From positions 8,637-14,329 of the forward strand of contig CAPQQE010000003.1 of NCBI GenBank assembly GCA_948687865.1: 5,693 nt of DNA, given 5' to 3'. Positions 3,051-5,693 of the stretch are shown piece after piece; the stretch's first letter is position 1; every line of letters starts with the position of its first letter. The stretch comes from an uncultured Bacilli bacterium (lineage in GTDB: Bacteria; Bacillota_I; Bacilli_A; RF39; UBA660). The notes below the pieces were generated by a model that did not search any database, was not told the origin of the DNA, and saw nothing but the letters and a program-made list of their open reading frames with translations. The translations under genes and the position numbers were made by a program.

Positions 3051-3410
3051 CTAAAGTCTTTCCCAAGGCCATGGACTATTTATCCAAGACCAAGGATATT
3101 TTTCATTTGAATCAAGAACAATATTTCCAAATTTCTTCTCATATTCTTTTAAGAATTTATCAGATATTTCACTATATTGATTATATAAACCTATTGCTTG
3201 TTTATCATCAGGATATATATCTAAATACAAATTAAGTTCATGTGCCGCAAATGCATACATTTGAATTTTTTGCATTAAATCTTCTCTTTCATTTGCACTT
3301 TTTAAGTTAGCAACATATTTGTATGGCCAAAAATAATATCCAAATAAATTACCTCTATTTAATGCTTCTTTTGGATCTACTATACTATATAGCTCTTCAT
3401 TATTATTCAC
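3051..3410 (-). CDS. cotJB: Spore coat protein CotJB with an N-terminal CotJA-like segment
   Basis: 119 aa from the preferred GTG. Residues about 41-119 are CotJB: HELNLYLD..P.D..AI..YNQY, then a Tyr/Lys-rich linker, and the Trp-Pro-rich end YPWSW...PWPWE. The normal CotJB is about 85-90 aa. The extra N-terminal ~35 residues carry DPKEALNRGNLF and WPY (residues 12-30), resembling the conserved P.EAL..GTLF....PY core of CotJA; no separate cotJA frame lies upstream. CotJA, CotJB and CotJC are known to work together in the coat, so a fusion would keep the partners linked. Start choice: GTG at 3410 has an AGGGTGAT Shine-Dalgarno-like stretch with AGG 9 nt upstream. The in-frame GTG at 3419 (122 aa) is possible, but it sits inside that ribosome binding site and has no usable spacing. 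No ATG is available in frame nearby. Confidence 0.88.
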   Translation of the reverse strand: MNNNEELYSIVDPKEALNRGNLFGYYFWPYKYVANLKSANEREDLMQKIQMYAFAAHELNLYLDIYPDDKQAIGLYNQYSEISDKFLKEYEKKFGNIVLDSNEKYPWSWINSPWPWERL

Positions 3411-3422
3411 ATTTATCACCCT
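3411..3422 (-). promoter_or_regulatory. Ribosome binding site deciding the cotJB start
   Basis: Read on the minus strand: AAAGGGTGATAAAT directly before GTG at 3410. GGTGAT matches the extended anti-Shine-Dalgarno complement (GGAGGTGAT) and gives an 8-nt gap after GG. This favours the GTG at 3410 over the one at 3419, which is part of the same GGGTG. Confidence 0.5.
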
Positions 3423-3432
3423 TTCATTTTTT

Positions 3433-3462
3433 ATATTATGTTAATCGTTTATATATGAATGT
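3433..3462 (-). promoter_or_regulatory. Possible sporulation-sigma promoter of the cotJ operon
   Basis: On the minus strand CATAATATA (3440-3432) fits the SigK -10 form CATAnnnTA and matches 6 of 8 bases of the SigE -10 CATACAnT. It lies 22 nt before the cotJB start codon. The -35 is poor: ACATTCAT (centred near 3457) is only a weak SigE-like match, and the CACA further up is spaced too widely for SigK. The B. subtilis cotJ operon is known to be SigE-dependent, which makes a mother-cell promoter here likely, but this site is tentative. Confidence 0.3.
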
Positions 3463-3474
3463 GCATAAGCCCTA

Positions 3475-3503
3475 TTGAATAATGAACAAATGTTTGATAT
3501 AAT
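3475..3503 (+). promoter_or_regulatory. Sigma-A promoter (SOS-type)
   Basis: TTGAAT at 3475-3480 (four of six consensus -35 bases), a 17-bp spacer, and a perfect TATAAT at 3498-3503 with TGA immediately before it, i.e. an extended -10. It is the best-formed vegetative promoter in the window and points rightwards. Transcription would start near 3510. There is no gene with a ribosome binding site directly behind it: the next intact start codon is at 3907, and dinB is at 5382. It lies back-to-back with the cotJ operon. Seen directly in sequence; activity inferred. Confidence 0.75.
3484..3496. promoter_or_regulatory. LexA (SOS) operator inside the promoter spacer
   Basis: GAACAAATGTTTG fits the Bacillus-type LexA consensus CGAACRNRYGTTYG at every position except the first base, which is T instead of C (13 of 14). 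It lies entirely between the -35 and -10 elements, where a bound repressor would block RNA polymerase. With dinB 1.9 kb downstream on the same strand, this strongly suggests an SOS-controlled transcript. Confidence 0.75.
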
Positions 3504-3525
3504 TTAGATGAGGACATTAAATAAT

Positions 3526-3890
3526 TAAGCAGAAACCGGAAAAAATTATAAGACCAAATATTATAATTTTACTAAACGCTTTATAGAAGATGTGTATAAA
3601 AGTTGTGGAATTATTACGATAATAATTAATATAAGATATAGTGATAAAATATTAGAAACTATTTGAAAATAAAAGGGCAGAGGTTAATAGATAAAATAAA
3701 AGAATATACAATAAAAACCTTTGAGTGGATTAAGTATATTGATGAATATGATGTAAAAGGATTATAAACTTTCAAGATATGCATGCTATTTAATAACTCA
3801 AAATTAAAAATTGTTTCTCTTGCACAAACTTATTTTGCAGTGCAAACAAGAAAAGAAGTATAGGACAAATGATGAATAATGCAAATTATA
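3526..3890. other. About 365 bp without an intact gene; coding-like debris
   Basis: The plus-strand frame from 3529 to 3666 is open for 45 codons without a start and includes YYNFTKRFIEDVYKSCG. Around 3648-3767 a second frame is open for about 39 codons, including FEWIKYIDEYDVKGL, again without a start or ribosome binding site. Protein-like stretches switching frame suggest a decayed gene, but neither piece is recognised. At 3820-3845 TTGCAC and GTGCAA form a 6-bp inverted repeat around a 14-nt spacer. TTGCAG (3835-3840), 18 bp, TATAGG (3859-3864) is at best a weak promoter for the gene at 3907. No RNA gene, riboswitch or CRISPR repeat seen. Confidence 0.4.
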
Positions 3891-3893
3891 TGT

Positions 3894-3898
3894 GGAGG
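3894..3898 (+). promoter_or_regulatory. Ribosome binding site fixing the ORF6N gene start
   Basis: GGAGG lies 8 nt before ATG 3907. It falls inside the first codons if the in-frame GTG at 3892 were used, so the ATG is the start. Confidence 0.85.
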
Positions 3899-3906
3899 TT
3901 AAGAAA

Positions 3907-4797
3907 ATGAATGAAGTTATTGAAAAGGGAAAAAATATAGTAGAAAATATGATATATGAAATTAGTGGTAAACAAGTTATGTTAGATACTGACTTGGCCA
4001 GACTTTATGGTGTAGAAACCAAAAGAGTTAACGAGGCAGTAAAAAACAATCTTAATAAGTTTCCAGAAAGATTTAGTTGGATTTTAACTGATGCAGAATA
4101 TTATAATTTGAGGTCGAAAATTTCGACCTCAAGTTTAGAAAGTAACCATGGTGGTCGAAGATATAAAATAAGGGTTTTTACTGAACAAGGAATTGCAATG
4201 TTAGCGACTATTTTAAAATCAAAAATAGCAACAGAAGTAAGTATTAGAATAATGGATGCTTTTGTAACCATGAGAAAATATATATCAAATAATTTATTAG
4301 AACAAAAATATATAAATAATATGGTTTTAGAACATGATAATGAGATTAAATTGTTACAAGATTCATTTCAAAAATTTGAAGAAAAAAAGAAAGTAAATGA
4401 GATATTTTTTAATGGCCAAATATTTGATGCTTATTCTAAAATATATGAAATATTTAAAGAAACAAAAAGAGAAATTATAATAATTGATAGTTATGCTGAT
4501 AATACAATATTAGATATAGTTAAGAGATTAGAGGCAAATGTAATAATTATAACTAAAGAAGATAATCTTTTGACTAAGCAAGATATATTTAAATACAACA
4601 AACAATATCATAATTTAAAAGTTATTTATGACAATACTTTTCATGATAGGTATTTTATACAAGACAATAAAAATATATATCATTGTGGAGCAAGTATAAA
4701 TAAAATAGGATATAAGACATTTTCTATAACCTTAATTAACGATAATTTTATTATAAAAACATTACTTGATAGAATATATAAAATTATTAATATTTGA
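3907..4797 (+). CDS. ORF6N-domain protein with C-terminal PLD-like (single HKD) domain
   Basis: 296 aa from the ATG with a well-placed GGAGG; the in-frame GTG at 3892 would add five residues but overlaps that site. Residues ~10-125 are an ORF6N domain, the DNA-binding module common in phage antirepressor-like and KilA-N-related proteins: LDTDLARLYGVETKRVNEAVKNN as EMDLA-type helix-turn-helix, FPERFSW, then GGRRYKIRVFTEQGIAMLA. Residues ~127-162 look coiled-coil. Residues ~166-275 form an alpha/beta region ending in FHDRYFIQD (His246, Arg248, Asp253) and YHCGASIN, which fits one HxKx4D motif of the phospholipase-D superfamily with Arg for Lys. A single motif usually means the active site forms by dimerisation. 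The Arg may mean altered or lost catalysis. Function is not known; it could be a phage-type regulator, nuclease or defence effector. Upstream is an SOS-type promoter, with no obvious gene between. A 25-bp perfect palindrome lies within codons 68-75. Confidence 0.85.
   Translation: MNEVIEKGKNIVENMIYEISGKQVMLDTDLARLYGVETKRVNEAVKNNLNKFPERFSWILTDAEYYNLRSKISTSSLESNHGGRRYKIRVFTEQGIAMLATILKSKIATEVSIRIMDAFVTMRKYISNNLLEQKYINNMVLEHDNEIKLLQDSFQKFEEKKKVNEIFFNGQIFDAYSKIYEIFKETKREIIIIDSYADNTILDIVKRLEANVIIITKEDNLLTKQDIFKYNKQYHNLKVIYDNTFHDRYFIQDNKNIYHCGASINKIGYKTFSITLINDNFIIKTLLDRIYKIINI
4108..4132. repeat. 25-bp perfect palindrome inside the ORF6N gene
   Basis: TTGAGGTCGAAA (4108-4119), centre A, TTTCGACCTCAA (4121-4132). 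It encodes residues Leu68-Ser75 in frame. It is richer in G+C than its surroundings and uses TCG and ACC codons that are otherwise scarce in the gene. As RNA it can fold into a 10-bp stem with a 5-nt loop; as DNA it would suit a dimeric binding protein. Confidence 0.85.
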
Positions 4798-5111
4798 TTT
4801 CTTAATTTAGTGAGATATTCAAATAAGTAACTTATTATGATTTTGTCTTACCCATATTAGTAAATTTTTACTTTCTAATTTGTCATTTATAACAAATTAG
4901 AACTAACTTAAAATGATATAAACAAGGTTCATTATGAAGTGGGTAATAAAATACAAATACAACCAATGATTTAGATGGAACAATGCTAGAAAAATTGTCA
5001 ATATAAAAAATTTGAGGGAATTAGAAAAGAAAAACAATCTTCTAAAGATTGGTAATAATAATTAATTATTACTTAAGTAAAGTAAGTTAATTGTAATTTA
5101 TCGCAAACCAG
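4798..5111. other. About 310 bp without a recognisable gene
   Basis: All frames are broken by frequent stops. It holds an 11-bp hairpin (4873-4902, listed separately), a weak AATAAGT/ACTTATT repeat (4822-4836), and two overlapping AT-rich palindromes at 5056-5071 (TAATAATTAATTATTA) and 5069-5080 (TTACTTAAGTAA). Short coding-like runs appear, such as NDLDGTMLEKLSI (4965-5003, in the frame of the later 70-codon ORF) and NLRELEKKNNLLKIG in another frame, but neither has a start signal or a recognised family. No tRNA, riboswitch or sigma-A promoter seen. Confidence 0.4.
4873..4902. repeat. 11-bp perfect inverted repeat downstream of the ORF6N gene
   Basis: TTCTAATTTGT (4873-4883), loop CATTTATA, ACAAATTAGAA (4892-4902). 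It lies 75 nt after the ORF6N stop. Neither direction has a following T run, so it is not a standard intrinsic terminator, though it may still stabilise or end the transcript. Confidence 0.6.
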
Positions 5112-5324
5112 ATGCATGGGCATGCTGCAGCGGAGATTATAGTTGAAGGAGCAGATAGTAATAAATATCTTATGGATTTAACTACTTTTAGTGGAGGTTA
5201 TCCAACACTATTATATGGAACAATTGTTAAAAATTATTTAACAGATAAAGAATTAGATATTTTAAATATAATTGGGTTAAAACTAAACAAAGTGGAACTT
5301 CATTATTTGAAAATCATTAAATAA
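5112..5324 (+). CDS. 70-codon uncharacterised frame, probably a gene fragment
   Basis: MHGHAAAEIIVEGADSN..., 70 aa, no membrane segment or signal peptide. The ATG has no Shine-Dalgarno sequence, and the frame is open for only five further codons upstream (from 5097) with no better start, so if it was ever a gene it has probably lost its 5' end. The composition is protein-like. His4 (in GHAAAEIIVEG) and Asp22 (in YLMDLTTF), 18 residues apart, recall the His/Asp half of transglutaminase-like cysteine protease folds. The usual Trp after the His is missing and no Cys part is present, so this is only a faint similarity. The stop codon lies in the loop of a 14-bp palindrome and within the right copy of the CATTAAATAAT repeat. 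It is 57 nt before dinB. Confidence 0.3.
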   Translation: MHGHAAAEIIVEGADSNKYLMDLTTFSGGYPTLLYGTIVKNYLTDKELDILNIIGLKLNKVELHYLKIIK

Positions 5325-5335
5325 TGATTTTCAAA
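5306..5335. repeat. 14-bp perfect inverted repeat at the end of the orphan frame
   Basis: TTTGAAAATCATTA (5306-5319), AA, TAATGATTTTCAAA (5322-5335). It covers the orphan frame's stop codon and the right copy of the 11-bp direct repeat. No T run follows in either direction, so a terminator role is uncertain. It could equally be the end structure of an inserted segment or a protein binding site. Confidence 0.7.
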
Positions 5336-5349
5336 AGATAGAGAATTTT

Positions 5350-5368
5350 GGGTATACCCTTAGTACTA
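5350..5368. repeat. Tandem palindromes next to the dinB ribosome binding site
   Basis: GGGTATACCC (5350-5359) and TAGTACTA (5361-5368) are both perfect and end at the first base of the AGGAGG that serves dinB. They lie in the dinB leader and could form an operator or a small RNA structure. Neither resembles a LexA box. Confidence 0.5.
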
Positions 5369-5381
5369 GGAGGATAAAATT

Positions 5382-5693
5382 ATGGAAAGAATAGTATTAC
5401 ACATAGATGTTAATAGTGCATTTTTATCTTGGTCTTCCCTAAAACTCCTAGAAGAAGGTTATAAAAAAGATATAAGAAATGAAATATCAGTAATCGCAGG
5501 TGATCCAAGTAAAAGACATGGAGTAATAGTCGCAGCTAGTATTCCTGCAAAAAAATTAGGAATAAAACCCCCTATAAATCTATTTGAAGCAAGAAAATTG
5601 TGTAAAGATTTAATAGTAGTAAAACCTGATCATAATTATTATCATAAAAAATCAAAATCATTAATGGATTATTTAAAACAATTGTTTCCAGAG
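5382..5693 (+). CDS. dinB: Y-family DNA polymerase (DinB/Pol IV type), 3'-truncated by the window edge
   Basis: The first 104 codons are present and the frame is open at the window end. HIDVNSAFLSW (residues 7-17) is the catalytic motif of the clostridial DinB/ImpB branch: Asp9 is the metal-binding acid, and Phe14 aligns with the steric-gate residue that excludes ribonucleotides. Next come AGDPSKRHGVIVAASIPAKKLGI (palm/fingers, with the conserved RHGV.VAAS and AK..GI) and FEARKLCKDLIVVKPDHNYY, all expected for the family. It would carry out error-prone translesion synthesis. AGGAGG at 5368-5373 lies 8 nt before the ATG. No good sigma-A promoter or LexA box lies in the 57 nt between the preceding frame and this start. 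The nearest SOS promoter on this strand is at 3475-3503. Confidence 0.93.
   Translation, partial: MERIVLHIDVNSAFLSWSSLKLLEEGYKKDIRNEISVIAGDPSKRHGVIVAASIPAKKLGIKPPINLFEARKLCKDLIVVKPDHNYYHKKSKSLMDYLKQLFPE

Follow-up and report, generated by a model that had tools for sequence, protein, structure and literature searches.

Related genomes point to inserted genes between an SOS-type promoter and dinB in an uncultured Bacilli bacterium

Introduction

What becomes of an SOS gene when other genes come to lie between it and its promoter? The question is raised by a stretch of 5,693 nt from an uncultured Bacilli bacterium (RF39, UBA660; assembly GCA_948687865.1, contig CAPQQE010000003.1, positions 8,637 to 14,329), here called the window. 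An earlier note on this DNA had described a promoter with a LexA box that has no gene directly behind it and, far downstream, the Y-family polymerase gene dinB. It had proposed that a segment with an ORF6N-domain gene was inserted between them. We compared the locus with related genomes and find that foreign DNA has almost certainly parted the SOS-type promoter from dinB, because relatives show the empty site. Most likely the promoter now drives the ORF6N gene, and dinB is reached only via read-through. To the explanation as a whole (ancestral dinB promoter, insertion, SOS-driven ORF6N, dinB by read-through) we assign a probability of about 0.6.

Results

Using the kinase gene from the left part of the window to scan genome contigs, we obtained four loci. 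The one close locus, L001, lies on a contig of a metagenome-assembled genome of an uncultured Bacilli bacterium (G001), and its proteins are 76% (kinase), 81% (gap), 90% (cotJC), 75% (cotJB) and 82% (dinB) identical to those of the window. The DNA alignment extends from position 1 to the end of the -10 hexamer (3503) at 81% identity and resumes from 5381 at 84%. G001 has the same promoter with its LexA-type box, followed by 21 nt between the -10 hexamer and the dinB ATG. Within a set of 117 genomes, consisting of G001 and relatives, 87 gave a dinB match, and in six (G001, G002, G003, G005, G006 and G007) dinB is 72-83% identical to the 104 residues encoded in the window. In four of these six (G001, G003, G005 and G006) promoter and box immediately precede dinB, as the earlier note had expected of an empty site, and cotJB lies on their far side. 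G003, G005 and G006 are like G001 in the spacing of -10 hexamer and ATG, which does not support the ancestral leader of about 72 nt that had been proposed. Counting the window with the six relatives, promoter and dinB are together in four loci, separated by genes in two and without a strict box in one. G004 and G008, near the top of the list of relatives, gave no dinB match, which is weak evidence since both are drafts of unstated completeness; G004 has gap, with no cotJB, cotJC or dinB beside it among open reading frames (ORFs) of at least 80 aa, and no gap match was found in the draft of G008.

The window is organized as follows.

Left part of the window, plus strand: uridine-kinase-type gene and gap
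Between gap and the promoter, minus strand: a gene of the Pfam Mn_catalase family, which we take to be cotJC, and cotJB
3475-3503, plus strand: ancestral dinB promoter according to the alignment to G001, G005, G006 and G003, with -35 TTGAAT (3475-3480), a 17-nt spacer and extended -10 TATAAT (3498-3503)
3484-3495, plus strand: LexA-type box GAACAAATGTTT in the promoter spacer
3515-3525, plus strand: left copy of CATTAAATAAT, not a junction
3538-3567, plus strand: possible N-terminal part of rhuM, tentative, model positions 73-82, from shuffle tests
3568-3692 and 4798-4911: stretches of the insert outside all assigned parts
3693-3854, plus strand: remnant of the N-terminal part of dinD, model positions 3-119, with an internal deletion and frameshifts
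3907-4797, plus strand: intact ORF6N-domain gene, 296 aa from ATG (alternative GTG start at 3892), PADLOC candidate PDC-S05
4912-5059, plus strand: remnant of the C-terminal part of dinD, model positions 226-275 (protein end), frameshifted
5112-5342, plus strand: remnant of the C-terminal part of rhuM with an internal deletion, open frame 5112-5324
5306-5335, no strand: hairpin with 14-nt arms and no T-run behind it
5315-5325, plus strand: right copy of CATTAAATAAT, within the final codons and stop of the rhuM remnant frame
5368-5373, plus strand: dinB ribosome-binding site AGGAGG
5382-5693, plus strand: first 104 codons of dinB from ATG 5382, open to the window end

A search of the window against Rfam gave zero matches. 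Two further symmetric sequences were noted: a near-perfect inverted repeat in the ORF6N coding sequence at 4105-4135 (15-nt arms, 93%), and GGTATACC inside GGGTATACCC, a perfect short palindrome at 5351-5360, downstream of the rhuM remnant and ahead of the AGGAGG of dinB.

The LexA box in an extended -10 promoter was found as the earlier note had given it: TG precedes TATAAT, GAACAAATGTTT lies within the spacer, and no intact gene lies directly behind. The pattern alone means little, with 21 promoter-like sites in 3380-5420 compared with 19.3 (standard deviation 4.6) in shuffles, so that the meaning of the promoter rests on its conservation in relatives. Among 30 dinB loci of relatives, 15 have a strict box no farther than 80 nt from the start of the gene, six more have a box with one mismatch, and nine have neither. 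The control gave strict boxes in 2 of 466 other upstream windows; the boxes near dinB also had to be followed by a -10-like TA...T, a requirement left out for the control windows. Judging from this difference, dinB has probably long been under SOS control in this group. A script recognized the lexA gene in 10 of 12 fetched loci, all 10 with one or two strict upstream boxes, and the lexA boxes of the group are of the CGAACAATTGTTTG type. Of 20 related genomes searched, 18 have a LexA DNA-binding domain that scores above the cut-off of the family (all 18 at E <= 6.7e-20), the exceptions being G008 and G032. Since a box of the group's own LexA motif overlaps it, the promoter is a predicted LexA (SOS) promoter. 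Where the window and G003 read GAAC, the other three empty-site genomes read AAAC. In a study on C. difficile, GAACnnnnGTTT is one of four motifs that were searched (PMC4234289).

The insert (approximately 3504-5375, about 1.9 kb) contains mostly broken genes and one intact candidate phage-defence gene, ORF6N. Its genes have the same orientation as dinB, and its G+C content is 0.236 compared with 0.277 to the left of it. Pfam assigned ORF6N to the intact ORF (2.8e-30) and RhuM to the short ORF 5112-5324; the RhuM match (PF13310) spans only profile positions 130-183 of 252 and thus marks a remnant instead of a whole gene. The ORF6N protein matches the PADLOC model PDLC04869 at 1.5e-87 over residues 8-291 of 296. 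Matches of the remaining insert DNA in relatives pointed to DinD (NF008573), which is present as two separate frameshifted parts and not as one open gene. Intact rhuM and dinD lie side by side in G031.

Profiles were built from 33 DinD, 7 RhuM and 26 ORF6N proteins, and four stretches of the insert were aligned with each of the three families by a frameshift-tolerant procedure and compared with 200 dinucleotide shuffles (12 tests). No shuffle reached the score in four of the tests: dinD in 3690-3890 (209 half-bits compared with 32.5 in shuffles), dinD in 4798-5090 (94 and 33.7), rhuM in 5090-5381 (150 and 35.6) and rhuM in 3504-3690 (55.5 and 34.9, standard deviation 5.4). When the last of these was repeated, 5 of 2000 shuffles reached the score. 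With 12 tests made, the short rhuM N-terminal part of ten residues at 3538-3567 is therefore graded as likely and not higher. On the right side, the traceback places rhuM model positions 179-279 at 5115-5361, and the DNA matches rhuM of G031 at 5125-5274 (83%) and 5264-5342 (71%), with the internal deletion between the two matches.

The ORF6N gene sits between both parts of dinD, and the order of the pieces is rhuM (N-terminal, uncertain), dinD (N-terminal), ORF6N, dinD (C-terminal), rhuM (C-terminal). This order would fit nested insertions of ORF6N into dinD and of dinD into rhuM, accompanied by deletions, which we regard as the probable history; separate copies of these common genes may account for it instead. 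Of the earlier proposal, the insertion itself is supported by the empty sites, and the single ORF6N segment has to be replaced by three gene families, two of them broken. Eight comparisons (dN 0.16-0.22, dS 0.70-1.43) show ORF6N genes to be under constraint as a family. The stretch near 3619-3674 (57 nt, 77%) was not accepted as another ORF6N remnant, as 16 of 200 shuffles score as high. Recombination between the dinB and dinD promoters at a common box is kept as a remark only, because dinD-like sequence starts no earlier than 3693. The dinD gene of G031 carries GAACAAATGTTTG and a GATGAGGA that is also present in the window (window 3484-3514, 87.5%); the 8-nt likeness GATGAGGA may be that of a ribosome-binding site.

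Similar genes were observed elsewhere in the order, where 187 of 385 genomes have at least one match to the ORF6N gene of the window. ORF6N genes stand head to tail in G225:C8:14536-17196 (three in a row, 18 nt apart), G401:C5:70802-72775 and G289:C34:9743-11503. At L108 5519-8443 (G068) dinD is split by about 2.2 kb carrying other genes, presumably a PDDEXK-type nuclease and an IS200/IS605 transposase by their look.

The borders of the insert can be placed no more sharply than at about 3504-3537 and 5343-5375, since leader sequence is not conserved among the relatives. The earlier note had set them at two copies of CATTAAATAAT, which are indeed present at 3515-3525 and 5315-5325, and it had remarked that a palindrome crosses the right border; this palindrome has perfect 14-nt arms (5306-5319 and 5322-5335). 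A segment bounded by CATTAAATAAT and inserted with target duplication would account for the two copies, and in only 2.25% of 2000 shuffles do the two flanks have at least 11 bases in common. Recurrence is not special to CATTAAATAAT, however, which is one of 14 different 11-mers found repeatedly within 3380-5420. The empty-site junction of L001 lacks the 11-mer, the left copy has no counterpart there, and the right copy is derived from rhuM, whose similarity continues past it to about 5342. CATTAAATAAT was accordingly rejected both as junction and as duplication: the single copy expected at the empty site is missing from L001, and a transposon insertion of this kind, with a direct repeat that is single in the empty site, finds no place here. 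We regard this origin as exceedingly improbable.

For the transcription of the locus we propose the following working. The SOS-type promoter at 3475-3503 is taken as the ancestral promoter of dinB, and genes of the rhuM, dinD and ORF6N families have entered downstream of its -10 hexamer and ahead of the ribosome-binding site of dinB. Upon DNA damage LexA would leave the box, and one transcript would run through the dinD wreck. ORF6N would come first on this SOS transcript and be made as a captured SOS gene. The last gene, dinB, whose start lies 585 nt past the ORF6N stop, would be reached only by read-through transcripts, so that it would stay linked to SOS in weaker form. Read-through into dinB from the SOS promoter appears somewhat more likely than not, with the sequence leaning both ways: a scan found no intrinsic terminator in 3380-5420, which leans towards it, and the hairpin before dinB leans against it. 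In favor of the proposed working, the promoter was kept while the dinD behind it decayed.

Several points weigh against it. The stretch with the hairpin 5306-5335 folds at -18.8 kcal/mol, a value that only 2 of 200 shuffles attain. ORF6N is preceded by about 0.4 kb of gene wreckage and dinB by 585 nt of untranslated RNA, and these stretches may end transcription in ways that the scan misses. ORF6N may have its own promoter, because weaker promoter-like sites lie inside the insert at 3684-3712 and 3920-3948. The N-terminal part of rhuM comprises only ten residues. A strict box was present in none of 30 ORF6N genes of relatives (130 nt before each), so SOS control is not a habit of these genes, and ORF6N of the window would have captured its SOS promoter. 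Finally, the arrangement appears in this one window only, as would be expected of an assembly chimera. In that case chance would have had to place both borders exactly in the gap from the -10 hexamer to the ribosome-binding site of one gene; moreover, the insert pieces match families from the same group of genomes, and we consider a chimera very improbable.

The lack of translation over 585 nt and the hairpin before dinB also fit a rival explanation, namely that dinB has been uncoupled from SOS: a cryptic promoter close upstream would keep it at a low, constant level, and ORF6N alone would be served by the old promoter. Such a state is conceivable, since G007, where dinB lies behind a hydrolase gene without a strict box within 1.5 kb, shows that dinB of this group can live without one. 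The nearest plus-strand promoter-like site ends at 4914, however, and from there to dinB none reaches at least 9/12, in line with the earlier remark that dinB has no convincing promoter of its own. Together with the empty terminator scan this makes uncoupling unlikely, if still worth weighing. The insert might also be decaying passenger DNA, the promoter product being unused, ORF6N being lost and dinB effectively off. Two of its three gene families are broken, and G004 and G008 lack a dinB match. Against this, ORF6N and the start of dinB are open, the promoter is conserved, and dinB, 82% identical to that of L001, has a dN of 0.126 compared with a dS of 0.49; we find the passenger explanation improbable.

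SOS transcription of ORF6N and read-through into dinB are thus kept as the preferred reading, and the same 130-nt upstream regions were examined for the other insert families. Strict boxes were found before 8 of 30 dinD genes, 4 of 29 rhuM genes and 8 of 298 control ORFs. The gene sets are best-scoring matches and mutual kin, not random samples, so the Fisher values of this test overstate the case. All four rhuM boxes are the same AAACAAAGGTTT and are taken as weak. Judging from the first residues, real SOS neighbours seem to make up at least four of the eight control hits: the NERD gene of G002, two cotJB and a lexA. The boxes before dinD suggest that dinD is an SOS gene well outside the enterobacteria. 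The dinD genes with a strict upstream box belong to uncultured relatives (L119, L122, L123, L124, L126, L128, L135 and L142).

Genes precede dinB at two other loci. In G002 (L080 6383-9357) one strand carries cotJB, cotJC, a hairpin with T-run, the promoter TTTATTAAACAAATGTTTGGTATAAT, a NERD gene (239 aa, NERD and topoisomerase-zinc-ribbon) and dinB; the promoter is like that of the window, and its box lies 777 nt before dinB. Two homologues of the NERD gene in G007 (53-55% identical) have no strict box, from which the promoter before the NERD gene is likely that of dinB. In G007 (L079 7385-10409) the gene preceding dinB encodes an alpha/beta hydrolase. In both genomes cotJB-cotJC share the strand of dinB, an orientation opposite to that in the empty-site genomes, and the history of G002 therefore comprises more than one insertion.

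Discussion

The locus resembles a LexA-controlled dinB, in that relatives have a LexA-type box in the -35/-10 spacer directly before dinB, and differs from it by about 1.9 kb of other genes between promoter and dinB. In PADLOC, both RhuM and ORF6N fall under PDC-S05, and DinD under PDC-S13. These models are matched by the ORF6N protein of the window and, in G031, by an intact RhuM and an intact DinD; in the window, however, two of the three are broken and stand behind a dinB promoter. Such candidates derive from guilt-by-embedding, with experiments still pending for the majority of the common ones (PMC12988326). The ORF6N gene is accordingly termed a candidate phage-defence gene; phage relatives of its domain are listed as anti-repressors in PHROGs.

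SOS links of the two broken families appear in two papers. In one, B. subtilis LexA bound in vitro to a site preceding a rhuM gene from the gut, and the study proposes HsdS as an SOS function (PMC3998124). The window likewise has a LexA-type box upstream of rhuM sequence, but its promoter is inherited from dinB and its rhuM is a wreck. The other lists E. coli dinD in a table of induced SOS genes (PMC11002266). The dinD genes of the present group often have a LexA-type box (8/30), but that of the window is broken and behind the promoter of another gene. Our searches of open-licence literature brought up no account of such genes separating dinB from its SOS promoter. The window is a variant of known events and not a new system.

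As a more general proposal, which we put forward tentatively and do not expect to hold, the gap between promoter and dinB could be a recurrent landing place in this small-genome group, where defence-type genes capture a damage-inducible promoter and push the polymerase to the end of the transcript. If this were true, phage-defence candidates would become SOS genes, and the window and G002 would be the first two examples among seven loci. Taken by itself, the window is, on the evidence of relatives, an example of gene insertion rewiring the regulation of an error-prone polymerase. A candidate defence gene would thereby come under DNA-damage control, and whether SOS control over dinB can be lost or weakened matters for mutation under stress. 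Because sister species differ in having or lacking the insert, this rewiring can be tested.

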